A stretch of DNA of 64,000 nt from Chlorophyllum brunneum (taxonomy: Eukaryota > Basidiomycota > Agaricomycetes > Agaricales > Agaricaceae), in contig OY756141.1 of NCBI GenBank assembly GCA_963576785.1, positions 744,001 through 808,000 of the forward strand. Reading direction: 5' to 3'. Shown here piece after piece: positions 468 to 60,306 of this stretch. Below the pieces are notes generated by a model. The model was not told the DNA's origin and did not search any database. It saw nothing but the letters and a program-made list of their open reading frames with translations. Made by a program: the position numbers and the translations under genes. Each line of letters begins with the position of its first letter. Position 1 is the first letter of the stretch.

Positions 468-695
468 CTGAGACGTTAAAATTTGATCCAGACCCTACCC
501 GTGTACCATGCAATCAAACTCATGAATACTCACGAGCCGGAACAACCCTGAGTTCCTATCCAGTGACTTCCTGGACGTCAAGCCCAGGCTTACACCACAC
601 GCATGCTTGCATCACGACTTTCACATCCCCAACCCTTACCTTTATTTTCGGGTGCAGGGATATAACGCTGACCCTCACGTATCCACTCTAATGAC

Positions 696-3600
696 ATGGC
701 CAGAACGAAGCAAAGTGCAAGAAAATCGACGAGTGGTGCTACTCTCTTCTACTCCAGGAGGAAAAACAAGATCAGAAAGAATAAAGTCATCACGGATATG
801 CCTCGCACGAAACTTGCTGTGGAATCCAAGGCCAAGTTAGCTGATCGTCGGGCATCCGGCTCTGTCTCTGCGCTGCTCCTCACAAGCCGACCCAAGACTC
901 GAAGCAGCCATAGCAGTAGCACTCTCGTAGAATCCTGGCACGGAAAAAACCAACATCAACCGCCTGTGGACTCGCTCTCGGATGCATTGTCGAAGTTAGG
1001 GAGTCCATCAGCCGGTGACGGGAATAAGTCCAGTATTCTGTCGACCAACTTTTTCTCCAACTCGACGAGGGTGCTGGGAGTGGTCAAGGATGTGTGCGAG
1101 GCCTTCAGTGGCGTGCCTTATGTCAAGGGTTTGGCAGGACTTGTGGAGCAAATCATCGAGGTCGCCGATGTGAGTGAATCACCAGTCATGAATCAGAGAT
1201 GGCTAGAATATTCTGTGCGTTATAGCAAGTGCAGGCATACAAAGACCGATGTCAGGCCCTCGTCGATAAAGTTGTCCTCTTTTCGCAGGGTATTTTCGAG
1301 GGTTTGCTCAGCCTGTCAGGGGACGCCAGTGCAGGAGAACAACTTCAGAGCCTTGAATCAGACTTGACAGCGTTCCTTGGGTATGTTTTTCCCCATGTTC
1401 GTCTTACCAGCCCCTTATACATACATGACGACAGCGTTCTAGAAAGTATCTATGCCACTTTGAACAGTCTTACAGCCCAACGAGTCTCCTCCAGATTCCT
1501 TCGCTATGTTGCCCGTGTCGAATATTTGGAAACGCTCACCGAACAGAACAGGAACCTGGCCACATATATTCAATACTTCAATGTACGCTTTATGTTATCT
1601 GTCCCCAGGATTTATGCACATAAATGGGTTTTAGACAAGATCCAATGTCGCCATTCGCCTGGGCTTGGGTACAGGCTCGGATCATGTGAGATTTTTGGGT
1701 ATCTCTTTCGCCCTCAGTTAATCCCTGCCTATTTCTCAGAACCTCAACAGAGCATCCCGACCTGCGTCTGCGACTAAGCGCTTAATTCCTGTACCTCCAA
1801 CGCTCTACGGAAGGGACAATGAGATTGGCATTGTCACCGACCTCCTCGTAGCGTCCAATCAGCAAGTCCATTTGGCGATCCTTGGACCCGGTGGAATGGG
1901 AAAAACCTCCTTAGCCCTCTCAACCCTCACAAACGAAAAAGTCATATCCAAGTTCGAGGACAGGTTTTTCCTCCCTTGCGACAGCACCCCCTCTCTAGAA
2001 CTCTTCCTCTATGAGCTTGCATCGGCGCTGGATGTCGGTACCGATGGAGCCTCGTCACAACTCCTTCAAGCAGTAACTCACCGACTACGACAACGACCGT
2101 GCTTACTAGTATTCGACAATCTGGAGACTTTATGGGATCCTTTGAGAACACGGTCGGATGTCGAATCATTCTTATCGCAAATAGCTTCTATTCCCACTGT
2201 CAACCTTCTCGTCACTCTCCGTGGCTCACAACACCCAGCAGGAGTAGATTGGACACAATTCCTTCCGCCTCTCAAACCCCTAGACCTCCAGTCCTCCCGA
2301 GCCCTGTTTAGCAAAATTTCCCACAAATCGGATGACGCCTACGCAATGTATCTCATCAAAGCCATCGACCGCGTCCCTCTAGCTGTTACCCTTCTCGGAC
2401 ACCTTGCAGCGGTACATGGCGTGACCACGGAGTTTCTCTGGGAACGGTGGATTGAAGAAAAGACGATGATGATTGAGCGCGGAGATGATCGTCTAGCGAA
2501 CCTCGATACCTCGATACGACTATCCCTGAATAGTCCACGGATGAATCACGACCCCAATGCATTACCGTTCCTCAGCATCATCGCATTACTCCCGAATGGC
2601 ATGTCCCATGATATGTTTCGTACTTGTGATACCCATCTTCCAGAAAATATCAATATCAAACGAGCAATCAACACTTTACGCCAAAATGCACTTATTTACG
2701 ACGATGCCGACAGGACACTACGTATACTTAGCCCCATACGACATTATGTCCTCTTGCATCATCCCCCCTCTCATATTGCAAGCGAATTTATTTCGTGCAA
2801 CTGGCAATGTTGGCTGGTGAACGTGTCGCTTCAGTTTATGAGCGTCTTCGTCACGAGATAGGGAATCTCGAGGAGGCGCTCGTCCGAGCCCTGGAATCAT
2901 CACGACCTATTGAAGACACTGCCGCTGCCATTTTCTCATTAGCAGAGTACACCTACGTCTCCGGTATCGGGTCATGTAATCCGCTCGAACGTGTCGTGGG
3001 ACGGTTGGAGAAGCTCACTCATTCAAGGCCTAAATCGCAAAATTCGGTGAAGAAGAATCTACGTCGGTTCTTCTTGGGTCGTAGCAACAAGGAGAGGGAC
3101 GATAAGGTCGAGAATGATCTTGTAACTCTCCGAGCCGATTGTTTGGGATGTTGGGGTCAACTTCTCAGCAGACAAGCTCGTTACGATCAAGCCAAAGAGA
3201 AATTCGAGCTTGCCTTGGAATTACACGTTCAGCAGGAGGATGTAGCTGGACAAGCAGCGGACCCGCACAATCTGGCATGTTTACTCGCTTTGGATGATGC
3301 TGTGGAGAAGTTTACTGTGGCGTCGCGGCTACATGAAAAAATTGGTGATAGGGCAGGTGTGGCTTACGATATGATGGGTCTGGGACAGGTACACATTCAG
3401 CGATGTCAACTGCCTCAAGCTCAAGACGTTTTCGCATCGGCTCTTGGGATATTCGGTGAACTGGACGGTGAAGACCAAGATCCTATTGGACGCGTGACAG
3501 CGCTTAACAATATTGGGTATACCCTTGCGGCATGGAATAAATTCATCGAAGCGGAGGGTTATTTCAATCAAGCAATTCAAGCGAATGAATCCATCGGTGA

Positions 3601-4633
3601 CGTAGTATGCAAGGCAGATAGTTTATGCGGACTCGCATCAACTTTTCTTCTACGGTCGAAGTGGAAAGAGGCTGAGGAAAGGATAACGGAAGCGATGAGG
3701 TTGAGGAAACCATTCGAGGATCCTGACCATTGTCACGTCCTAGGTCGTATACAGTGTGCACAGTGGAAACTCTCTGAAGCTCTGGAGACATTCCAGTACA
3801 CTCGGACGCTTCCTCGGGACCCGAAAGACGATTCGGGGAGAGGAGACGACTTGAAGTATTTGGCGTATACCTTCGCCTTACTTGGACGCGTAGACGAATC
3901 GTTGGTGACGTTGGAGCAAGTAGAAGCCATGTACGAGTCCGCTGAGAGTGTTATTGGTCTCGCGGAAGTCAACATAGCTCGAGCAGAAATTTGGACTGTG
4001 CAAGGAAAATTAGAACAAGCGCAAGTCGTGGTGAAGGAAGCGATTGGTGTGATGGAGGATTTGGATTGTAGACTTGGAAAAGCACATGCGTTGTATGTAC
4101 TCGGCGGCATTGAATCGGCGAAGGGGATGTATCATAGAGCGAGGGAGTGTGTTCGGCTTGCGCTGAGGCTTCACAAGGAAGTCGGGAGTACTCAAGGGCA
4201 AGCAGATGATCTGGCGCGGTTGGGGGAGATTCTAATCTTGGAACAAGAGGACGGGAACGCTATGATGATGGAGGTGGGGACTCTGGATGGGGCAATGGAG
4301 AACATAAATCAAGCCATGGCATTACATGAGGGAATTGGCGATACAGCTGGGACAGGCGACGATTGGTACTCTCGCGCATTACTTGGTATGAAACGAACTG
4401 ATCTGGTAGGGGCGGAAGAGGCGGTGAAAAAAGCTTTGGAGCTACATCGTGCTGCTAAGGTGTTCTTCAAGCAAGGAAGGGATTATTCGCTACTGGGTCG
4501 CATCCTGGAGGCTCAGGGGAAGAAAGACGAAGCCGTACAGGTGTTTGATCTGGCTATTTCTATTTTGGGGAAAATAGGGGCTACAAGAGAGATGGCGATT
4601 TGTCAAGCATTCAAGATGGATGCGGCGCAGTAG
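696..4633 (+). CDS. NB-ARC/TPR NOD-like receptor with a histone-H3-like N terminus
   Basis: Exons 696-1169, 1235-1380, 1435-1582 and 1740-4633 splice in phase, giving about 1,220 residues. The N terminus MARTKQSARKSTSG matches the histone H3 tail; an in-frame TAA at 663 makes ATG 696 the first possible start. A helical region follows (VLGVVKDVCEAFSGVPYVK onward, residues about 110-250), as before the nucleotide-binding domain of many mushroom receptors. NB-ARC: P-loop GPGGMGKT near residue 304, Walker B CLLVFDNLETLW, LLVTLRGSQHP and RVPLAVTLLG. The C-terminal half is TPR-like helical repeats (AKEKFELALELH, AQDVFASALGIF and others). Such proteins are thought to be intracellular sensors that oligomerise on ligand binding. 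In the last exon the frame shifts by one base at a run of six C (2763-2768), between HHPP and CKRIYFVQLAMLAGERV. This is a real break, a sequencing error or a noncanonical 35-base intron. Confidence 0.82.
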
Positions 4634-19990: not shown

Positions 19991-22558
19991 CTAGCCGTCC
20001 TCATTCGGTAAAACACCACAATCGTTGGAATCAATCGTTACTGGGCGTTTCGTTCGCACAGCGGTCTCTTTCTCTGAATGTCCTCCAGCTCTCAGAGGAA
20101 AATAATATCTAATAACAGGCTGTCCTTCCTGTTTGCCTTCAGGAGAAAGGAAAACGGCACAGCGCATAGAGGGATCTGATCCAATAATCAAGACTCGAAC
20201 TTGAAGCGAATCCTTCTTCCTGAGTATTTCAAAGTCCCCGAAAAAGTCTTCATAGGGTAGTGAATACCTCTCGAGGTGCCCGCCACACGCCTCATCCGAC
20301 TGGGCGTTCAGAGAAACAGGATTCGCACTCCAGTGTCCCCACCGATCGGGTTTCGTCCGATAGAATACAGACGTCCTCTCCCCGTCAATCCAACCCGGGT
20401 CAAATTTCTCGGCGGTCATCTGATCCGCGATGAGCTTGTTCCACACTGCAGGGAGTGACTACATAAATCAGAGTGTCAGCTAACTCAATCGGGTCCCAAG
20501 GCACAGTGACGTACACCACTCGAAATCCAATTGACCAAGTTGAAGAATCCGAGAGCATCACTGATGTCAAATGCGTTGAAATGAAGCCTTCCGAAGGCAT
20601 CGAAGAATGCGTCCAACTCTGTCTCATGGCTCTGCGCGGCCCATTTCATGAAGATCTTGGGCAGCACCTGATGCCAACTCCGCTTCACTTCTTGGACGAT
20701 CTGCACACCCAAGTTTTCTTCTGCATGATGATCCCAAGAAAGAGGAATGGCTGGCGAAACATTGCCTACCCATGGAGGAGTTAGCGGTGGGTGAGTAATG
20801 GGACTAGCAGACAAACCTGCAGAAAGGGCAAGATCAAGTTTCTGGATATAGCATAGAGCTATTTTGATGCTGCATTTGCCCATATCCAGAGAGAAGCCCC
20901 CTGAACGAGTGGGATCCATCAGGTAGTCTCCAAAGGATTTATGAAAGAAGGATAGGGGTTTCTTATTGGCATCCGAAGGCTGTGGAGCGTCGAGGAGAGA
21001 ATGAAGGCGTTGAAGTGCGCCGTACATAACATGTTGTGGTATATCCAAGATATTTGCAACCATGAGCAACGGAGTGGATGGTCCTCTAAGGATAGCGAAA
21101 CCGAGGATTTGATGCAATATTGGTATCGACCGGGCAGGGACAGACGAGAGAATATGTGTGTAGAGTGCATCCAGGAAAGCGAATGGGTTATCGTCGAGAT
21201 CCGTTGGTCCGCGGTGCTCGAGGGCAGAAAGAACGGCGTCCAATTGACTGACTGGATCCCCGTAGAGTGATCCGTCACCGACATATCTGAGCGTAGCCGC
21301 AGCAAATGAGAATAGGCCATTGGCAGCACGTGCGATCGCAAGGAACTGCCGTTCGGATGGCCACGGGGACGTTGATGGAATGGTGTCCGCGAAGTCTTCT
21401 CGAAGCTTCTCAAAACCTTTGCGCAGGAAGCGCTCGACATCCATACAAGCTTCCGAGCCGTTTGGGGGAAGTTCCAGTAGCATGAAGGTATCCTTGACTT
21501 CAGGGCGGGCAAAGACATTGCGTAAATGGTACTCGCGCCGACTAGCTAACACCCATAGGAAGGGCGTCGCAGGTCTGGACTGGACAAACGAAGCAATGAG
21601 AGTCACCAGCTCGCATTGTGCCTGTTGGTCTTCACACTCGTCCAGTCCATCAATTAGTATCAGCGGCCTCCGTTGGTTTCCAAGAATCCTGAGGGTTATG
21701 AAAGGTTCAGAGATGAATTGCCGAAACTGCTGTCTCAAGGATTTTCCAAATATGCTAGGATCGCAGTCAATCAGATCGGAAACGTAGGTCCTGTACTCTG
21801 GAATCTTGACGGCAACCTGATAAGCGAGGGTGGGAACGATACCAGAGGCCTTGCATCGTCCGCCTGAGAGGGAGAAAAAGAGGGATGCCGCAAGAATGGT
21901 GGGATTTGTTTCCGCAAAGGTTTGCATAATGGCCGATTTCCCAACTCCGGCGGCTCCGCACAACCAGAGTAGCCTCCGTTCTATGTTGAGACACCACCCG
22001 TCCATCTCTTGTAGTTTTTCTTGACGAGTACCCGGATGGCACCGGGGAGGTGGATCTCTTGCTGTTGAGTCGAATTCTGCCCCAGGAATAACATGTTGTA
22101 AAAGCTCCTGCATGGCTGTTAACATATAGACTTAGTACTAGTGAGCGCGTTATCAAATGGAGGATTTACTGACCGCTGTTTTTGCTGACCACGTGGACGT
22201 TATTTCCATTGTGGATGTTGTGGTTGTGGATGTTGCCGTTGTGGACAGTCCTGTCTGTGAGAACCGGGTTGTTGAGGACGAAGCTGTGAGAGTTTTGAAA
22301 GAACCCGCCACCCGCAGAACTCGGCGTAGGCGGGTATGTCGAGTGTATTGGAGAAGTTGGTGAATAGGGAGGTGCAGAGATTGTAGCTGGTGAATAGGGC
22401 GGTGTAGGGAGGCGGTTGTGAGGCGCAACAGAAATTGGTCTGTTTGCACTTGCTGTGCGCATGAGTCAGAGGAGTGGCTCCGAGGAGCAGAAATACAACA
22501 CACCTATAGGGGTAACACTGGTTGTCAGGCGTAGACACTTGTGTTCTGGCTGCTTCAT
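19991..22558 (-). CDS. NACHT-domain NOD-like receptor, intact copy 1
   Basis: Four exons fit in phase: 22558-22504, 22452-22174, 22115-20517 and 20445-19991, giving 795 residues. Exon 2 has a serine/proline-rich part, then FFQNSHSFVLNN and the repetitive TVHNGNIHNHNIHNGNNVHV. Exon 3 begins MQELLQHVIPGAEFDSTARD and holds the NACHT domain: P-loop GAAGVGKS (about 165-172), Walker B LILIDGLDECED (about 263-274), then a winged-helix-like region. This FFQNS ... GAxxDS ... GxxGxGKS order is typical of the large mushroom NACHT family, thought to be ligand-triggered ATP/GTP-dependent sensors in heterokaryon incompatibility or defence. Exon 4 carries a unique C-terminal end and no WD40 or ankyrin repeats. 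The first exon (MKQPEHKCLRLTTSVTPI) is the least certain; ATG 22462 within intron 1 is an alternative start. A second, broken copy lies at 24470-60306. Confidence 0.85.
20706..22155. repeat. 1,450-bp tract identical to 58576-60025
   Basis: The constant offset of 37,870 bases holds across the whole tract with no indel. I found no mismatch in the lines compared, and the derived peptides in several frames are identical. Outside it the two NACHT copies differ clearly: 14 of 54 residues differ just beyond the left edge, and a 7-base gap opens at the right edge. This pattern indicates a gene conversion tract. Confidence 0.85.
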
Positions 22559-25027: not shown

Positions 25028-26812
25028 TCAGTTAAAGAAGTGTCCCTCATACTCTGGGTCTCCTCCAGACGAAGCTGCCTGTTGAATGATTAACAGTGCA
25101 TTCAGTTTGTGTGCTGTGGGGTCACAAGAGTTGTCAATGCACTTTCCGATGGTTGATACAGCTTTGAGGACCTCCTGACAAGTCGGCTGAGGCTCAATAA
25201 AAGCCTCATCATCGACATCGTCATCTCCGTTTATCTCAATGTTCTCGCGTGCCTTGACTGCGTCCATGACCGTGTGATAAATTTCTTTGTCAGATGTTTC
25301 TGTCATGATCTGTGATTCACCTTCGGGGTTGAGAAGAGCATTGATATCCATCCTGTTTGTTGTCTGCAGTACCCCAGTAGCAACCAAATAATCAAGAGCA
25401 ATTTCAAGTTGTCTCTCTGCTTCGACAATCGGATCAGCTGTTTGCGGGAGAGCGTTGTGGATAAGAGAAGAAACAGGGATGGTAGGTTGGGCAGTGCGAG
25501 ATGAAGTTGACAAAATTTCGGGTAAGATTCCTGCCTTGCGCCAGCAGTTCCGAAGGGTTGTGGTGTCAACATTGTTCCATGCTTCATCTGCCACTCGCAT
25601 TGCCTGTAACTGATTGATGTCATATATTTCAGCAGGTGTGATTCCTTCATCGTATCAATCAACGGCTCGTTGGATAAACTTGGCGTGGTAGTAAGCTTTG
25701 AAGCATCGGATAATACCTTGGTCTAATGGCTGGATATGCGCAGTTAGATTTGGCTCGAAGTTTTCGACACGGATATCTGTGAGATTGGAAGGAACAATAT
25801 GGCCCGAAAAGTTATCTTGAAGAAGCGGTATGTGTCGTCCCTTTGCTCGAAGTTCATGATCCCATCCCACTAGCCAATCTTGATATAGATGTGCAGTCAT
25901 CCAAGCCTTTGCATTACTTCGGAAAGTTGTACACCTGACTTCTTGTTGAATGTGCAAGGTCGTGCCGCTTTCCCAATGACAAAAGGTAGGAGCTTCTCAG
26001 ATCCGTCGGCATTTGATGTCAAGGCATATGTTAACCTAACTTTCTTTCCTTTGACCCCAGATTGTTTTCGATTTGACAAGACTCTGTCTGGAGCCATGCT
26101 AGGTTTTGAGTTAGCTGAGAGTGGAATATTGGAAAAGGTGTGTACTAACCCATAGAATAATCCAGTTTCATCCATGTTGAAGATGTTTCGTAGTTGGTAA
26201 CCATACTTTTCAATGAGCTCTTGAATTCGTTTTCTCTCCCCCTCAACTATTTCTGCTCTAGCTGATCCTGCTTCCCCATGCTGCCTCATCTTCTTCAAGC
26301 CATTCCTGTCCTTGAAACATTGCAGCCAGCCATTGCTGAGTTTTAGCCGGTCATCTTCAGGGATTCCAATCAAGTTGGCAAAGGCATTCCATTTCTGATG
26401 AAGGACTTCACCAGTGAGCAAAATTCCGTCACCCATTGCTTTTGAGACCCATAAATACATCATATCCGTGACCTCGGAATGTTCAGTTTGTCGAACTCGT
26501 TTTGTTGTACAGTCACGTTCATGGGAAACCTTTTCCCACTGCTCGCATATTGTAGCTTCGTCCTTGATCCATTGTGAGACCAATGGTTGTTTAAGCTTAA
26601 GATTTGGGTATTTAGGTGCGAAATTCTGAGTAGTTGCTGATTGATTTTTTCCATTCTTGTGGTGCCAGTCAAGGATTTCTATCCGCTATTTCAAGGTAGA
26701 GTTTTCTTTCTCTGTAAAAACTGGAGGCTCAGAAGCTACTAGCTGACTTGATTTTTTTTTGGGTGCTATAGCTTCCTTTTCATATTCTGAACCTGTTCAG
26801 CATATGTCAATG
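25028..26812 (-). pseudogene. Decayed pogo/Tigger-type DDE transposase with CENP-B-like DNA-binding region
   Basis: Reading leftwards, the N-terminal part (EILDWHHKNGKNQSATTQNF, KLKQPLVSQWIKDEATICEQ) is the psq/CENP-B helix-turn-helix region of pogo-family transposases. GILLTGEVLHQKWNAFANLI and LKLSNGWLQCFKDRNGLKKM are the second helical DNA-binding part. The DDE core shows NMDETGLFYG, LLQDNFSGH and AHIQPLDQGIIRCFKAYYHA. Breaks: an in-frame TAG just before RIEILDW (about 26683), a one-base frameshift near 25925, and TGA at about 25655 in place of an expected CGA (AVD-stop-YDEGITPAEIYD). The frame then runs on to 25028. An upstream open piece at about 26890-27045 (LDHDANTIDEQRILETLES) may be another exon. 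The element cannot make functional transposase. Confidence 0.85.
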
Positions 26813-27539: not shown

Positions 27540-27762
27540 CAGATGAGTGTTCAAGTAAGTAGGAGTCCAGTTGAGCTTGAGAGTCCAAGAGAGTGAGTGG
27601 AGAGTCCAATAGAGTGTGTGAGAGTCCAAGTGAGTGAGTAGTAGGGTTTGAGTGAGTGGAAGTGAGTTTGAGTCCAAGTGAGCAAGAGTGTGAGAGTGTA
27701 AGAGTGTGAGAGTCCAAAAGTCCAAGAGTCCAAGAGTCCAAGAGTCTGAGAGTCAGAGAGTC
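27540..27762. repeat. Degenerate minisatellite of GAGTCCAA / GAGAGTGT-type units
   Basis: About 220 bases of short imperfect repeats (GAGTCCAAGA, AGTGAGTGGA, GAGTGTGAGA). The repeat is interrupted by LINE 1: the last 14 bases (27749-27762) are duplicated after the LINE tail at 30543-30556. Confidence 0.8.
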
Positions 27763-30542
27763 TCAAGGTTCTCTACCCTCACCAACTGGGAGCTATCTGC
27801 CAACGGTCCACTGAAGATGCGGGTCTCTTTCTAATGCACATCATCTGGGGAGCTTGGACGAAGAAGAAGAAGATATTGGTGCTCACATTTGATATTGCCC
27901 AATTCTTCCCCTCCCTCAATCACGATCTCCTTATTGACATACTAAGACGTCAAGGATTTCCCCCTCAAATCGCAGCGTTCTTCAACAACTACCTCAAAGA
28001 ACGCCGCACAACCTACCGGTGGAATAATGAAACCTCCCTGGAGTTCGACGCAGCAGTGGGGGTAGGTCAGGGCTCGGACCTCAGCCCTATTCTATCTGCC
28101 TTATTCCTTGCCCCCCTCCTCCGCATCTTTGACATCCGTATGGAGGAACACCATAACAGGTGGGACTTTCACATCCTGTCGTTTGTCGATGATAGCACTT
28201 TAGTTGCACAATCCCTGTCCCTGGAATGGAACGTCGAAATCCTTCAACACATGTACCGCGAAATGGAGCGGCTCATGAACGAATTCAGCCTAGAAATTGG
28301 ACACGGCAAGTCTGAGATCTTCCACTTCACATGTGCAAGACAAGACTCAAATCCCTCCATTGATTTGGGATCCCCGCCGTTCACTGGTCACAACCCCCTC
28401 AAACCAAAGACCCACTGGCGGTACCTTGGCTTCTACTTTGACCGGATGTTGACCTTCAAGGAACATGTTCGATACTACTCTGCCAAAGCGATATCTACGA
28501 TTAAGGCGATGAAAATGCTAGGGAACTCCGTTAGAGGCCTGTCCCCCAGCAACAAAAGACTTCTATACTGTTCGTGTGTCATACTAGTGATGATATACGG
28601 ATACCAACTTTGGTTTCATGATAGGTCATGAACTAAAGGGACTTGTGAAATCCTCAACAAGATGCAGCGAAGTGCAGTGCTCTGGATTACTGGGGCCTTC
28701 CGGACTTCTCCCACTGGCGGTGTAAAGTCCCTCAGGGGGCTCATGCCCATCAAACTCCATCTCCGAAAGTTGGCCGAATGACAAACATCGAGGCTTCATA
28801 CATTGGATAATGAACATGCATTGGCAAGATTGACGAGAGAATATCATTCTTCCCCCCACCGACTTCACATCAAGAATTTTACAGAGATTTAGAAGAAGAA
28901 GACACTTAGAGCTGTGATGGATATTTTGTGCCCCACCCCCGAGACTTGTTATATAGAACATTTTAACTCTGTTTCTAAATCTGTCTGGCCCGGACGTAGG
29001 TTACTTGACCGTTTCTCTACTAATGTATCTTTTACAGGATTTAACTGGGACAGCCCTCACCTCTCGAAGACACTTTGGAATGATGTTACAACCAATATGG
29101 CGACAAATGAAAAATCCATCATTATCGGCACGGATGGCTCAGTCCACCCCAATCCCAACCTGCTTGCCAGCCAGTTCACGGCGGCAGCTACTATTCGACA
29201 CCTAGACAGCGGGAGCTCTATCATGAAGAGGCTCGGAGGAACTACGTCGACAGACATTGAACTGGTCGTACAGTATTTAGGAATTACCAAGGTACTCGCA
29301 ACTGCAGAATACGACTAGGTTGAGCACATTCATGTGTTCACCAACTCTATCGCAGCTTCCCAGCTCTTACTCGATTGTTCGCCACACTCCTGTCAACAAC
29401 AATCTATCCTCACATCAAAGGCGCTTCTGGCTTGGTTCAGTAAGTCAGACCAACACCGCCTCTCCTTCTATCACACACCGTCAAAGTGTAAATACGGTAT
29501 ACAGAAAGCCACTCACAATTGGATCCAAACAGTCGCCTGGCCTAACCGGGGTAGAAATCACCGAGTTCCTAACTCCGTGGACTACTTGCACAAGAAGTCC
29601 ACCGAATGAGCAATCCATACATGGCAGGCCATGTTCAACTTCAAGAAATACAGCAGTAGTTCCTTTCTCCACCTCCCGGTGTGAGCGAACGGGGCCTCCG
29701 CTTTACTGTCACACATCAAGTCCGGTCCCTGGATACAAGAATGCGGTTACCAGCCTCAGCTCTTCGCAAGAGCATGTCACGCCATCCTATGCCACACCCC
29801 GATAGGGGAGTTTTGTCTATGATTCTTCCCCAATGAGGACCTATCATGCCACCACTGTGACAACCAAATGGTCCAGACTAGGTCACACATCCTCTATTGT
29901 TGCAACAACTTCGATCATCACTTTGGCGTCGACACCATCAAGACTTTTGTCAATTTCTTGCGTCGTAACCCTACCGCATTCAGTTTCCCTCCAAAACCTG
30001 ACCGCTCTCGTATCCGCACCAGGTCAATACCCCCGCTACATCGTCGTCAAGTCCAAAGGAGGTTTGGGTCTGCACCTGCGTAAATCCTTTTCTTTTTCTC
30101 TTCTTCTTATGCTCTCCCAGTTATGGATTTCAAATTTATTCCTCTTTCTCCCCTTCCCTCGCTCGTCTACTATTTTATATATAGTTTTCATTCAAAATCC
30201 ATCCCCCCCGTGGTGCCTGGGCAAATGCCCTCCCACATGCTAGTACCATTTGTTGTTCCCCCTTGTGTTTGTGAGTCGATAGTTTCTTTCTATCAATTTC
30301 TCTCTCTCACTCTCTCTCTCTCCGAATCCCTTCTTTCTTTTTCTCGCTGATCAACTTAGGTACCAAACATCTCTCTAGTGTATACGCTAGATGGCGTCAA
30401 GTCTCGTGGGGTTAGTTTACTCATAGTTTACTCTCCCTCCTCTGAACATTCTGTATGTTCTGCTTTTGTATGTATGTACACGCAGACTGCATTCAAGCAC
30501 TGCTATATAAATTGTTGAATTAAAAAAAAAAAAAACAAAAAA
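27763..30542 (+). mobile_element. LINE 1: 5'-truncated non-LTR retrotransposon
   Basis: Flanked by a 14-base target duplication, AGAGTCAGAGAGTC (27749-27762 and 30543-30556), and ends in an A-rich tail (30521-30542). It starts inside the reverse transcriptase, so it is 5'-truncated, as is usual for LINEs. RT frame 27834-28631: FDIAQFFPSLNHDLLIDILR, GVGQGSDLSPILSALFLAPL, ILSFVDDSTLVAQ (FVDD is the catalytic motif), then KPKTHWRYLGFYFDRMLTFK. After several stops an RNase H domain (29101-29318; IIIGTDGSVHPNP) and a C-terminal cysteine/histidine motif (CHHC...HILYCC, about 29850-29900) follow. A sister copy, LINE 2, is nearly full length. Confidence 0.88.
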
Positions 30543-37808: not shown

Positions 37809-38645
37809 TTACTCATTTATAGGTATGGCAGCTCCCAGAGCTCTGGCCAAGTCCTTCTTGTTTCCTCCGATGAGAGGTGTTTTGTCGACACGTCTTAAGC
37901 CGATCCAGAGGGGCGCATGTGGCGGTCCTTCTTTGAATAGGAAGTGGGTGTGGTTATTGTACGTGGTGTTGTCGTTGGTGTGATTGCTTAAGAGCTTATG
38001 CACTATACTCCTCCAGTATTCGTTGTCCTTCTTGCCTTCCGATTTCAATGTGTTGTATCCCTGCGGTGGATGGAAGGTTATGGGTGTGATGGGGGGTACT
38101 ACCGTGGTGAGGATGGTTTGGAGATGGGCTACTTCTTCTTCGATGTCGGGATGGAGTAGTTGATCGGCGGCTGTTGCTTCTTGTGTCTTTTGTTCGCATC
38201 TATGACAGATATGATGTTGGATGGGAAATGGATCGTTACTAACGAGTAGTCGGTTAACGATATGGTGGGAGAGATTTTCTGTGCCCCTTGATTCATACAT
38301 ATTGAGTCGCTCGGCTAGGGCTACAAGGATGCTATGCATCCGAGCTCGCATATTGGAGATGACAATTAGTTGCAGGTCGTCGTTGATCTCGTATAGGTGT
38401 CTCTCCAATTGGTCTCTTCTTCCTTCGTCGATGATAAATTGGTTGAGTCTTGGAGTGGCGTCGGATAGGGTATCCATTATTTTAGATGCGCCTTCTTGGG
38501 TTGCTTTCATTGCTGCGCCCAGTAGTATCATGGTGTCGACTAGGGTCTCTCCTTCCACGAGTTCCTCATGGCTGGTTCTTTCTGGGACAAGTTCATCGAA
38601 TTCTTTGAGGTAGGGGTATGGAGTGAGTTGGCGTTTGGCGGGCAT
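37809..38645 (-). CDS. Third ORF of gypsy 1, intact, function unknown (278 residues)
   Basis: An uninterrupted frame between the end of pol (38743) and the 3' LTR, where an env gene would stand. It begins MPAKRQLTPYPYLKEFDELV and ends GNKKDLARALGAAIPINE. It is predicted largely helical and hydrophilic (for example QLERHLYEINDDLQLIVISN, MHSILVALAERLNMYESRG), with a possible zinc-binding HHICHRCEQ and no signal peptide or membrane segment, so it does not look like an envelope protein. A decayed homologue holds the same place in gypsy 2 (53132-54040; HAPFWIGC there, HAPLWIGL here). Being open while the gag-pol next to it has four stops is notable. I do not recognise a domain. Confidence 0.75.
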   Translation of the reverse strand: MPAKRQLTPYPYLKEFDELVPERTSHEELVEGETLVDTMILLGAAMKATQEGASKIMDTLSDATPRLNQFIIDEGRRDQLERHLYEINDDLQLIVISNMRARMHSILVALAERLNMYESRGTENLSHHIVNRLLVSNDPFPIQHHICHRCEQKTQEATAADQLLHPDIEEEVAHLQTILTTVVPPITPITFHPPQGYNTLKSEGKKDNEYWRSIVHKLLSNHTNDNTTYNNHTHFLFKEGPPHAPLWIGLRRVDKTPLIGGNKKDLARALGAAIPINE

Positions 38646-38742
38646 GGAGTGTTATGAAGGTAATTGGCGAAGTCGAGGGTGAGGTGGATACAGCGAGTGA
38701 TGCATTGAGTGTAGTGGTTGCTTGGAATGCGAGGTCTGTTGT

Positions 38743-41700
38743 TCATAATTGCTGTTTTTTACCTCCCCTTTTTATAGGTTTCGTCCTCGAAATCTTGTTC
38801 ATAAACTCTTGTACTGCTTCCTTGGCGTTTTCCAGATTTGCTTCATCTTCCCATGTATCTTCTTCGGATGTATATCCTTTCCAGTGTATTAGGTATTGTT
38901 TTCGTTTTCCCTTTGTGCGGTGTCCTCGGACTTCATCTACCTTGTAGTGTTCCTCATCATTGATTATCTCGGGGATCGGTGGTGGTGGAGTGCGCTGGCT
39001 GTCATACTCGGGTTTGTGATAGGGGGAGAGGAGTCTGCTGTTAAACACGTCATGTATCGCCCATGTTTTAGGTAGCTCCAGTCAGTAGCTTGTTTTACCT
39101 ATTTTCTCTTTTACCCGGAATGGTCCGTATCTCCTATGATCAAGTTTTTTTGTTGGCCTTGTTGTCCTAATATTGTCTGCTTCAAGCCAAACTTGGCTTC
39201 CTGCCTCATACTCGTGTTCTGGTTTTGTGCTATTCCGTTTCTCCATTTGCGTTTGGCTCTGTTGTAGCATCTCAATCGTTTTTTGGCGCATGTCTTGTAA
39301 CTCTTGTATTCGTTCCGTGATCGCAGGTGCCTTGGATGTGTTTGAGATATCCCCTTTCCATGGATGTCGTCCATATACTATCTGGAACGGTGAATGTCCT
39401 GTGGCGCTATGTGTTTTGTCGTTATACTGGAATTCCGCTGTGCTGAGCCATTTTTTCCAGTTGTCCTGCACATGGTTGATTACATTTCTGAGGTATGCTT
39501 CGACCTCCTGGTTGATGCGCTCTGTCTGACCATCTGTTTGTGGATGGTATGCCGTGGATAGGTTACGTTGGGTGCCGGTTGCTCTACAAAGTTCTGCCAT
39601 GAATTTTGATGCGAACTGTGGTCCTCTGTCACTAATGATCCTGCGGGGTATCCCGTGTTGTCTCCATATATCATCACGATAAATGTCTCCTAACTCTTCG
39701 GATGATAGGGTGGTGTTAACTGCACGTAGTCTGATCATTTTGCTGAAACGATCAACGATGACAAGTATCGCATCGTATCCTTCTGATTCTGGTAGTGGTC
39801 CTATCATGTCGATTGATATTTCTTCCCATGGTCCGATGGGTATCGGTAGTGGATGGAGATGTGTGGTAGGTCGTATCCGGAGTATCTTGTTTCGCTGACA
39901 TGCGTCGCATCCTTTGATGTATCGTTTAACATCATTGCACATTTGTGGCCACCAATATGTCCTTTTGAGGAGTTTGATCATTCTGTGCTGTTCCGGGTGT
40001 CCTACGTCCGTTTTGTCGTGGTGTTGTTGGAGTATTTCTTGGCATAACTCGGCGTTTGGTAGTATATATATTCTTCCTTCAAACATGGGTAATCCATCAG
40101 TTTCCCATATCTCCTCTGGTTGTTTCTCCTTTTCTCTTAGCCACTGTGTTTCTCTTCTTTGCTCCCTTCGTAATCGGTGTTTCAGGTCTTCTTCTCCCGA
40201 TATTTCCCAAATTTGTCTGATCTCGGTGATAGTGTTCTCGAATAAGTAGTCGGGTAATAGCGTGATATCTGTGTTATCTTTGGTGGTGTCCGTTTTTGCT
40301 AGTCTTGAGAGCACGTCTGCTTTTGTGTTTGTCTTTCCGGGTATGTGTTTTAGCGTGTAGTGATATTCTTGTAGTTCCAGTTGCCATCTTGCCTGTCGTC
40401 CTGTGAGTTGTTGTGGTTTCCTGAAGTATTCTAAGTTCTTGTGGTCTGTCCATATCTCGAATGGTTCATTGGCATCGAGTAGGTACTGTCTCCACGTTTT
40501 GACTGCTTCTCGGATTGCTAGTAGTTCTTTGTTGTAGATTTGGTAGTTTTGTTCTGCCGGTGTCATTGTTCTTGAGTAAAAGGCGATTGGGTGCCACTAA
40601 TCATTCTGGTTTTGTGACAACACCGCTCCTACTCCATATCCCGATGCGTCTACTTCTACCCTGTATTGTCCTTTGTCTTGAGGCATTGCTAGTACTGGTT
40701 TGCTCGTGATTTTTTCCTTGATCTTCTCAAACGCCTGTTGTTGTCATTCTGACCATGACCATTGTGCATCCTTCTTCTTCAGCTCATGTAGGGGTGTTGC
40801 TATGTTACTGAAGTCTTGTATGAATTGTCGGTAGAAGTTTGCGAAACCCAGGAATTTTTCGACGTCTTTTACGGATTTGGGTGTCGGCCATTCTTTTACT
40901 GCTTTCACCTTCTCTTCCTCCATTTTGACGCAGCCTTGTCTGACTGCAAGGATTGTAGTTTTCCATTTGGTGTATGTTGTTGGGACAGAGGTTGTTGGGT
41001 AGCCTACTATGGTTCGGATGATGTCTGCTCGGGTGTGGCGTTTGAGGAGGAATATTGCGTGGGTGTCGTCGGTCCCCGCTTGGGCTTTTAATGCCTCGAA
41101 TTCGATTAAGAAATCTGCCGTGTTCTTCTTCCCTTGTTTGAACGTCTCAATTTCTCCTTCTGCTATGGCTTTCCTATTTCCCAAGGAAAAGGTGGCTTCT
41201 ATTTCCTTTGTAAAATCATCCCAATCTGGCGTTTTCTTGTTCTGGATGGCTTGGAGTTGCGTGTTGGCATAAGGGCCTGCTAGCCCCCCTTTCATTCTTG
41301 CCAAAATTGCTACTATTTTCTGTTCTTCTTCTTCTATTTTGTTGAACATCAGCCATAAGGATATGGCTCTCCACCAATCATCGAATCTGGTTCTATCCCC
41401 ATTGAAATATCCTGGCTCCGGGGCTAGGTTTTTTGGGATGTTGACTTCTTCTGTCATTTCTGGTTCTGTTTCTGGTTCGCTGTGTTTGTTTGCGTAGGTC
41501 TCGGTGATTTCTCTATCGGCTGTGGCGTTGGCAACTTCTATGTCGATTTCTTCTTCAGATGCGGCTAGTTCCTCATCTGTACCGTGTTCGGATTCTTTCT
41601 CATAGGTCTCGGCGATATCTATATCGGATGTGTTCTTGGCGACTTCTATGTCAAATTCAGTTTCAAATAGAGCTGTACTTTCGTCTACACTGTGTTCGGA

Positions 41701-41838
41701 TTTCTGCCATTTAAGGCCTTCAGGGATTTCTGATTCTGTTGATCATTTAGATCCTGTTGCTATAGGTGAACCCTGGATGTCGGTTGGTCTCGGAGCTCTG
41801 TGTCTTCGTAGTGTTCTCGATGAGCTACTGTTGCTCAT
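38743..41838 (-). pseudogene. Gypsy 1 fused gag-pol with internal deletion and four in-frame stops
   Basis: One reading frame from ATG 41838 (MSNSSSSRTLRRHRAPRPTD) to the stop at 38743. Gag: an acidic N-terminal part, then NLAPEPGYFNGDRTRFDDWW and TFSLGNRKAIAEGEIETFKQ. After TYTKWKTTILAVRQG the frame jumps to CVKMEEEKVKAVKEWPTPKS and KFLGFANFYRQFIQDFSNIA, the RT thumb/connection. Zinc knuckles, protease and RT palm are absent. Then RNase H (IWTDHKNLEYFRKPQQLTGR), integrase with HHCC finger (HPEQHRMIKLLKRTYWWPQM, CDACQRNK) and DDE core (ISIDMIGPLPES, IISDRGPQFASKFMAEL), and chromodomain (YLIHWKGYTSEEDTWEDEAN). In-frame stops: TGA 41745, TGA 40746, TAG 40599, TGA 39084, mostly at former CGA or CAG codons. 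Confidence 0.88.
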
Positions 41839-58330: not shown

Positions 58331-58386
58331 TACATAAATCAGAGTGTCAGCTACTCAATCGGGTCCCAAGGCACAGTGACGTACAC

Positions 58387-60306
58387 CACTAGAAATCCAA
58401 TTGACCAAGTTGAAGAATCCGAGAGCGTCACTGATGTCAAATGTGTTGAAGTGAAGTTTTCCGAAGGCATCGGGGAGTGCTTCCAACTCTATCTCATGGC
58501 TCCGCGAAGCCCATTTTGTGAAGATCTTGGCCAGCACCTGATGCCAATTCTGTTTCACTTCTTGGACGACCTGCGCACCCAAGTTTTCTTCTGCATGATG
58601 ATCCCAAGAAAGAGGAATGGCTGGCGAAACATTGCCTACCCATGGAGGAGTTAGCGGTGGGTGAGTAATGGGACTAGCAGACAAACCTGCAGAAAGGGCA
58701 AGATCAAGTTTCTGGATATAGCATAGAGCTATTTTGATGCTGCATTTGCCCATATCCAGAGAGAAGCCCCCTGAACGAGTGGGATCCATCAGGTAGTCTC
58801 CAAAGGATTTATGAAAGAAGGATAGGGGTTTCTTATTGGCATCCGAAGGCTGTGGAGCGTCGAGGAGAGAATGAAGGCGTTGAAGTGCGCCGTACATAAC
58901 ATGTTGTGGTATATCCAAGATATTTGCAACCATGAGCAACGGAGTGGATGGTCCTCTAAGGATAGCGAAACCGAGGATTTGATGCAATATTGGTATCGAC
59001 CGGGCAGGGACAGACGAGAGAATATGTGTGTAGAGTGCATCCAGGAAAGCGAATGGGTTATCGTCGAGATCCGTTGGTCCGCGGTGCTCGAGGGCAGAAA
59101 GAACGGCGTCCAATTGACTGACTGGATCCCCGTAGAGTGATCCGTCACCGACATATCTGAGCGTAGCCGCAGCAAATGAGAATAGGCCATTGGCAGCACG
59201 TGCGATCGCAAGGAACTGCCGTTCGGATGGCCACGGGGACGTTGATGGAATGGTGTCCGCGAAGTCTTCTCGAAGCTTCTCAAAACCTTTGCGCAGGAAG
59301 CGCTCGACATCCATACAAGCTTCCGAGCCGTTTGGGGGAAGTTCCAGTAGCATGAAGGTATCCTTGACTTCAGGGCGGGCAAAGACATTGCGTAAATGGT
59401 ACTCGCGCCGACTAGCTAACACCCATAGGAAGGGCGTCGCAGGTCTGGACTGGACAAACGAAGCAATGAGAGTCACCAGCTCGCATTGTGCCTGTTGGTC
59501 TTCACACTCGTCCAGTCCATCAATTAGTATCAGCGGCCTCCGTTGGTTTCCAAGAATCCTGAGGGTTATGAAAGGTTCAGAGATGAATTGCCGAAACTGC
59601 TGTCTCAAGGATTTTCCAAATATGCTAGGATCGCAGTCAATCAGATCGGAAACGTAGGTCCTGTACTCTGGAATCTTGACGGCAACCTGATAAGCGAGGG
59701 TGGGAACGATACCAGAGGCCTTGCATCGTCCGCCTGAGAGGGAGAAAAAGAGGGATGCCGCAAGAATGGTGGGATTTGTTTCCGCAAAGGTTTGCATAAT
59801 GGCCGATTTCCCAACTCCGGCGGCTCCGCACAACCAGAGTAGCCTCCGTTCTATGTTGAGACACCACCCGTCCATCTCTTGTAGTTTTTCTTGACGAGTA
59901 CCCGGATGGCACCGGGGAGGTGGATCTCTTGCTGTTGAGTCGAATTCTGCCCCAGGAATAACATGTTGTAAAAGCTCCTGCATGGCTGTTAACATATAGA
60001 CTTAGTACTAGTGAGCGCGTTATCAGATTTACTGACCGCTGTTTTTGCTGACCACGTGGACGTTATTTCCATTGTGGATGTTGTGGTTGTGGATGTTGCC
60101 GTTATGGACAGTCCTGTCTGTGAAATCTAGGCTGTTGAAAAAGAAGATATGAGAGTCTTGAAATAGTTCGCCACTCGCAGAACTCGGTCTAGGTGGGTAT
60201 ACAGGAGTCATTGGTGAATAAAGAGGCGCAGAGATGTTTGGAGGTGAATAGGGTGTTATATGCATGCCGCTGCTGGGCACAACAGAAATTGGTCTGTTTG
60301 CACCTA
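58387..60306 (-). pseudogene. NACHT receptor copy 2: exons 2 and 3, no first exon, last exon 33 kb away
   Basis: Exon 3 is 59985-58387 and exon 2 is 60306-60037, with splice sites as in copy 1. The NACHT exon is fully open. It equals copy 1 over 58576-59985, but its last 54 residues differ at 14 places (for example AEENLGAQVVQEVKQNWHQV). Exon 2 has diverged strongly in its proline-rich part (ITPYSPPNISAPLYSPMTPV) yet keeps TVHNGNIHNHNIHNGNNVHV exactly. Exon 1 and the promoter are gone: a deletion joins exon 2's upstream flank directly to MDM12-derived sequence near 60340. The last intron holds the 33-kb insertion, and exon 4 (24470-24820) is frameshifted. A functional protein is unlikely. Confidence 0.87.
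58576..60025. repeat. 1,450-bp tract identical to 20706-22155
   Basis: Partner of the tract in the intact NACHT gene. Its left edge lies 189 bases inside exon 3 and its right edge lies in intron 2. Confidence 0.85.

Follow-up and report, generated by a model that had tools for sequence, protein, structure and literature searches.

Why does a fungal immune receptor begin with what reads as the tail of a histone? The question is posed by a gene in a stretch of 64,000 nucleotides from Chlorophyllum brunneum (GenBank assembly GCA_963576785.1, contig OY756141.1, positions 744,001 to 808,000 of the forward strand), referred to here as the window. The gene encodes a NOD-like receptor (NLR), and its product, read from the ATG at position 696, begins MARTKQSARKSTSGATLFYS. 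An earlier sequence-only reading had noticed that this start resembles the tail of histone H3, and its count was reproduced: 11 of 13 mature residues are identical, or 12 of 14 if the initiator methionine is included. The start codon on which it relied was likewise borne out, with an in-frame TAA at 663 and G at both -3 and +4; a nearer in-frame stop, TGA 669, also closes the frame, and ATG 696 is independently supported by a Leucocoprinus leucothites protein (P0067), residue 1 of which aligns to it. It is considered slightly better than an even chance that the block is a conserved mimic of the free N-terminal tail of H3, belonging to a nuclear NLR that would be docked on, or would bait, proteins that read or modify that tail.

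The likeness was measured against composition, solved structures and genome collections. When residues 2-35 were shuffled 200,000 times, 11 of 13 identities were never attained, the maximum being 8. Among 177,635 distinct sequences from the Protein Data Bank (PDB), the first 34 residues of the window protein matched H3 tails best, residue 1 on residue 1, with a best E-value of 0.061; the search gave 83 matches at E 10, and the best 60 of the 83 were all H3. A six-sequence profile of the first exon again found H3 tails in register (best E 0.018), the best 60 of its 102 matches being H3 or H3 chimeras. With the first 34 residues of P0067, H3 came first at E 0.15 and another protein appeared twice at E 1.4. 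The DNA pattern for MARTKQ[TS]ARK gave 9 matches in a prokaryote genome collection of 257 Gb, of which 7, in metagenome bins, read as H3 or fragments of it; the remaining 2 are unclear. Two short open reading frames (ORFs) in bins labelled Bacillota and Alphaproteobacteria (L063:6061, MARTKQTARKPSPTRR...; L066:728, MARTKQTARKIVPM...) reflect either contamination by an H3 exon or chance. Within the host genome, R-T-K-Q-x-A-R-K occurred 5 times (in this gene, in two H3 genes, in a repeat protein on contig C4 and in a short ORF on C6) and never in a reversed control, and A-R-K-x-T-[GS]-G 6 times against 2 (this gene, the H3 gene on C2, two H3 genes on C7, an H3 variant on C4 and one ORF on C9).

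A search of 5.8 billion proteins with exon 1, in which 215 candidates were scored, returned five relatives (P0062-P0066, E 1e-37 to 2e-26), all matching over 100% of the query and all beginning MARTKQ[TS]ARK. The query words used for finding relatives include the block itself; since the alignments span the whole exon, with E-values down to 1e-37, the block did not drive the detection. The N-terminal 275 residues, compared with full-length proteins, found three relatives from 7528 candidates: P0067, P0068 from Macrolepiota fuliginosa and P0069 from Tricholoma furcatifolium. Leucoagaricus sp. is also among the named relatives of the gene. The annotated full-length P0067 begins MARTKQTARKSGSG and likewise carries MARTKQ[TS]ARK. 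The gene model of P0068 starts inside exon 1 and is excluded from the block counts, and P0062 and the NB-ARC-TPR protein P0001 (77%) are probably one gene. Leucocoprinus belongs to the Agaricaceae, as do Macrolepiota and Leucoagaricus; Tricholoma furcatifolium belongs to another suborder, and its protein begins MARTKTNPRPSTSGAAIFYG.

Outside the block, four lineages (the window; P0062; P0063-P0066; P0067) share 46-53% pairwise identity, and the Tricholoma orthologue shares 23-26% with all others. In the alignment of the window protein with P0062-P0066, columns 1-10 have 95% mean pairwise identity and residues 45-90 have 40%; nowhere else in exon 1 are ten successive residues as conserved as residues 1-10, with 0 of 148 other ten-residue windows attaining that level and the best non-overlapping one reaching 91% at 135. 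The T6 of H3 is present in P0063-P0067, and P0064 equals H3 over its first 12 letters. With Tricholoma included, MARTK, R8 (residue 9 counting Met) and S13 are still invariant, and that orthologue retains A1-R2-T3-K4, R8 and STSG. The sequence-only reading had proposed that NB-ARC relatives be checked for the block and had taken orthologues lacking it as a sign of chance: all seven closer sequences (window, P0062-P0067) keep it, while Tricholoma is without the QTARK part. In a wider search, none of 61 proteins had a MARTK start in the first 50 residues inspected, a set uninformative for the N-terminus, its closest members P0001-P0005 starting beyond exon 1. The long Mycena NLRs among 22 proteins inspected in full are more distant and by eye start near the helical part, with no H3-like tail seen.

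Could the block be an accident, or a piece of a histone gene? A functionless chance likeness is extremely improbable. It would draw on the shortness and basic character of the block and on the commonness of MARTK-type starts by themselves, which have 34 matches in the host genome against 14 in the reversed control (MASTK, too, satisfies the pattern); among the 30 of these that were translated, only this gene and the pair of H3 genes on C7 agree at more than 6 of 14 positions, the intron-split C2 H3 scoring 6. Chance origin was rejected on the shuffles, on the 257 Gb pattern count, with at most two unexplained matches, and on the conservation of the block in 7 of 7 closer sequences. The MARTK matches near contig ends were set aside as a non-coding repeat with stops. 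This repeat, containing ATGGCACGCACCAAG, lies near the ends of C3, C5, C6, C8, C9, C10 and C11, imitates a MARTK start and, in the copies translated (those on contigs other than C11), then runs into stops. A recent copy of an H3 gene was rejected by codons: only 3 of 11 synonymous codons are shared with the C7 genes and 4 of 11 with the C2 gene, which by our own estimate is about what random synonymous choice would give, so the likeness was kept or gained at the protein level. A DNA search of the host genome with window 640-1000 found only itself. That an H3 gene's 5' exon was captured long ago, as opposed to stepwise convergence, appears rather unlikely. Such a capture would explain why the likeness stops near H3 residue 13, an exon boundary in the intron-rich C2 H3 gene, whose introns lie after MARTK and inside the codon following QTARKSTG; yet the synonymous sites agree no more than estimated for random choice, the post-MARTK intron of C2 is missing in the NLR gene, Tricholoma has no QTARK, and no H3 likeness was seen by eye upstream of the block.

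The gene consists of five exons up to the NB-ARC part, separated by GT-AG introns of 52-56 bases, with the TPR part after them. Its features, all on the forward strand, are as follows.

691..840, forward: upstream ORF of 49 codons, out of frame and overlapping the main ORF; its ATG lies 5 bases before ATG 696
696..737, forward: H3-tail-like block MARTKQSARKSTSG, 14 codons
720..770, forward: bipartite nuclear localisation signal (NLS) pattern RK-x10-RRKNK, residues 9-25, overlapping the block (pattern match)
696..1169, forward: exon 1, 158 codons, encoding the predicted disordered basic tail, a variable linker and the first helices
1170-1225, forward: intron 1, GT..AG
1226..1380, forward: exon 2
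1381-1434, forward: intron 2
1435..1582, forward: exon 3
1583-1634, forward: intron 3
1635..1685, forward: exon 4, placed by GT/AG and reading frame only
1740..2861, forward: exon 5, NB-ARC (P-loop GPGGMGKTS) and the following part; stop of this copy at 2859-2861
2770..2807, forward: shift of the coding frame relative to the full-length relative, with no space for an intron
2807..4633, forward: TPR-repeat part in the shifted frame (TPR_12, E 2.2e-22)

Residues 1 to 1244 of the L. leucothites protein align across the locus, one exon after another. The matches of its residues 267-631 and 631-1244 adjoin without a gap at residue 631 in two different frames, and the window copy is therefore frameshifted before its TPR part, leaving an uninterrupted product of 649 residues; in the relatives the reading frame is continuous across this stretch. 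The shift at 2770-2807 may mark an allele that is decaying or polymorphic, or may stem from an error in the assembly. In the host genome (38.9 Mb, 14 contigs; paralogue counts being lower bounds), a search with P0067 found no second copy at E 0.001, only the locus itself, and a search with exon 1 found itself and one match at E 0.139.

By its domain matches the gene is a fungal NLR of the NB-ARC-TPR type, which agrees with the NOD-like receptor proposed from the sequence-only reading. P0067 (58% in the N-terminal region) scores 27.4 bits for NB-ARC (cut-off 23.5) and 30.3 for nSTAND1 (cut-off 27.1); P0069 and P0068 stay under the NB-ARC cut-off at 17.5 and 16.6 bits. The window ORF at 1896-2861, which begins inside the P-loop, matches AAA_16 weakly (E 0.063), and the C-terminal repeat domain found is TPR_12, out of frame in the window copy. 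Among solved structures the family profile matches ZAR1 (RPP13-like 4, E 1.7e-6) and Sr35 (E 2.7e-5), while P0067 alone has no match at E 0.001. No histone family appeared in Pfam scans of the window ORFs or of P0067-P0069, consistent with the earlier remark that no histone fold follows the block.

In a low-confidence AlphaFold model (mean predicted local distance difference test score, 51) there is no secondary structure through residue 93, so that a long disordered tail would carry the block at its free end. For P0068 the predicted helices span residues 23-40, 45-61, 68-92, a short 98-103, 106-128 and 134-171. This bundle behind the tail in the Macrolepiota relative, with its short extra helix, weakly suggests an MLKL/HeLo-like fold: all matches to MLKL_N are below the cut-off (P0067 E 0.024, P0068 E 0.13, P0069 unlisted), and MLKL-like relatives of the bundle are absent from whole-protein fold lists, which the TPR part fills, the bundle not having been searched alone.

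How might such a receptor use its tail? A methionine before alanine is removed, and Met would be removed here as in H3, leaving Ala1 exposed. Readers of the K4 type require a free Ala1 plus R2 and K4, their contacts being A1, R2, T3 and K4. Since A1, R2 and K4 are invariant even in Tricholoma, we judge the tail more likely than not to be a true H3-tail mimic. The architecture would comprise a disordered basic tail, a helical bundle, tentatively MLKL/HeLo-like, the NB-ARC and the TPR repeats, with the first nine mature residues, ARTKQ[T/S]ARK, acting as a short linear motif under purifying selection that imitates the free N-terminus of H3. The overlapping bipartite NLS pattern points to a nuclear protein. 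Its tail may be bound or modified by K4-type PHD, WD40 or COMPASS proteins or by proteins of the LSD1 type and, in the closer relatives only, possibly by K9-type enzymes or readers in addition. It would either dock the receptor on the H3-tail machinery or serve as a bait reporting tampering with that machinery, the two having roughly equal odds, and docking or bait would gate the switch formed by the helical bundle and NB-ARC.

That the conserved N-terminus serves chiefly in nuclear import, as a bipartite signal, or is some other basic targeting element, is somewhat unlikely; it would resemble H3 because the H3 tail is likewise a basic import signal, or by convergence with no binding of chromatin. 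Seven of eight aligned proteins do carry the pattern RK-x10-[KR]3/5 at the same position, residue 9, these seven have 10-11 basic residues in their first 35, and conservation extends past the block to Y19 and K23. However, MARTKQ[TS]A is not needed for import and yet is the most conserved part, and MARTK is kept in Tricholoma although the RK pair is lost. The pattern is also weak in a single sequence, 2077 of 5000 shuffles of the first 60 window residues matching it, and composition shuffles yield it in 13-69% of cases across the eight proteins. A mitochondrial presequence is improbable, the Tricholoma start being Pro/Ser-rich by eye.

The mimic itself could work in more than one way. As an integrated decoy, a sub-case of the preferred reading, the tail would act as a lure for proteins of foreign or selfish origin that target the H3 tail by modifying, clipping or binding it, and interference with the lure would fire the receptor; taken alone, this is more doubtful than probable, at roughly the level accorded to exon capture. 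Near-exact residues 1-9 are what a bait for H3 enzymes would need, but we know of no effector. Excerpts of PMC12258605 mention integrated decoys for fungal NLRs nine times; the candidates described there are domains, most commonly C-terminal, and so short a tail would be unusual. Recognition in cis, in which the TPR superhelix of the receptor would hold its own H3-like tail and keep it off until real H3 tails or a modification compete, is very unlikely. The best structural TPR matches do include TONSOKU bound to H3.1, but these matches are generic, with many unrelated TPRs scoring equally; TONSOKU ranks only 40th of 45 by profile (E 0.0016), and the window copy loses its TPR part through the frameshift.

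Several points weigh against the H3-tail mimic favoured here. E-values for a match of 14 residues are weak in themselves, and binding, localisation and modification are all predictions from the sequence. The Tricholoma orthologue has TNPRP where others have QTARK, so that QTA and K9 are lost, and its first 34 residues have no PDB match at E 10. Invariant positions continue past the H3 likeness (S13, Y19, K23), which indicates that the conserved element exceeds its H3-like portion. Pro takes the place of S10 in 3 of 8 proteins, and T11 is replaced by Ala in one protein and by Gly in a second; marks on S10 and T11 are thus not the point. Named species stand behind just 2 of the 8 N-termini, and the frameshifted window copy may make a truncated product of 649 residues or be dead.

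A weaker second H3 echo, which the sequence-only reading had placed shortly after the block, did not hold: with residues 15-60 compared to H3 15-45, 724 of 2000 shuffles equal it in the window protein, and no fewer than 100 of 2000 do so for every one of the eight proteins. That reading had made no mention of the frameshift ahead of the TPR part, of the bipartite NLS pattern lying over the block, or of a Tricholoma orthologue without QTARK.

Histone mimicry (in viruses and transcription factors) and integrated decoys (in NLRs) are both already known. SNAG motifs stand at the extreme N-terminus of zinc-finger transcription factors, are of the MPRSFLV type and have little identity with H3; here there are nine near-exact H3 residues, on an NLR. 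According to excerpts of PMC12612597, LSD1 is recruited by the SNAG domain, a mimic of the H3 tail, and mimicry of that tail is common to the SNAG factors Snail1 and GFI1. A SNAG reading of an internal MPRTKL was dropped, its Met not being conserved. Influenza NS1 also carries a short H3-like motif on a non-histone protein in an immune context; it is described in excerpts of PMC10612106 as an imperfect mimic without the free amine normally needed by histone-binding factors, and differs in being C-terminal, viral and not part of an immune receptor. The H3K9-like mimics of EHMT1/2 are likewise ARK-centred linear motifs in non-histone proteins, with no tie to a free N-terminus described in the excerpts of PMC10611923; in this NLR, conservation is better at the N-terminus and in the K4 half.

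In basidiomycete MLKL-like (BaMLKL) NLRs the NB domain is preceded by a helical bundle of MLKL/HeLo-like type, according to excerpts of PMC9815663, an arrangement that the present bundle may resemble. That survey reports N-terminal amyloid motifs in agaricomycete NLRs; its excerpts mention no histone-like tail, and 'histone' and 'chromatin' are absent from its main text. The count for 'histone' is also 0 in the main text of two other fungal NLR papers, one of them PMC12258605. Like NLR integrated decoys, the block is a piece of another protein on an NLR and a possible bait, though in the excerpts of PMC12258605 such decoys are usually whole domains and here it is a tail of 9-14 residues. A literature check, itself thin, turned up no NLR described as carrying an H3 tail, and 'not in print' is accordingly a weak statement.

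Still bolder, and unlikely, is the view that a lineage of mushroom NLRs is equipped to probe chromatin with a near-exact free H3 tail of its own. The receptor would monitor H3-tail readers and modifiers, or its tail would rival real H3 tails for its own TPR part, and cell death would be triggered when invading nuclei, viruses or mobile elements interfere with chromatin. If true, this would be an immune receptor guarding chromatin through histone mimicry. Under the preferred reading, too, a conserved mimic of the H3 tail on the free N-terminus of an immune receptor would unite histone mimicry with integrated decoys. A 10-residue peptide would offer a cheap and direct test of whether fungal immune receptors watch chromatin.

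Other H3-like sequences were noticed in the same genome. An ORF at C4:192181-192792 on the forward strand (L060:3149-3796) contains the H3-tail-like units PRTKQTARKTTGATTPRRQ, APRTKQTAKKGTGAPAPRG and APRTKQMAKKTKKA and weaker ones; in the PDB it matches the H3 tail best (E 0.019), it has no Pfam match at E 0.5 and no second copy was found, and it appears to be a second H3-tail mimic, of an internal type. Two near-identical, inverted H3 genes lie about 69 kb apart at C7:680303 (forward, L009) and C7:749744 (reverse, L010), differing, over the stretch compared, immediately on either side of the stop codon and at a few upstream bases. A divergent H3 on the reverse strand of C4 at about 1302445-1303150 (L012:1500-2700), which looks like the centromeric H3, has an N-terminal extension MAQAVQSRAGPSNKRK... 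ahead of ATARKSTGG.

Elsewhere in the window, two near-identical P-loop ORFs of 548 codons, NACHT-like by eye, lie about 38 kb apart on the reverse strand (20485-22131 and 58355-60001) and differ near the C-terminus. Pieces of transposable elements were recognised by eye at 25028-26685, 27750-28631 and 37809-41742, comprising transposase-like ORFs, a reverse transcriptase, a Ty3-like integrase and gag-like ORFs.
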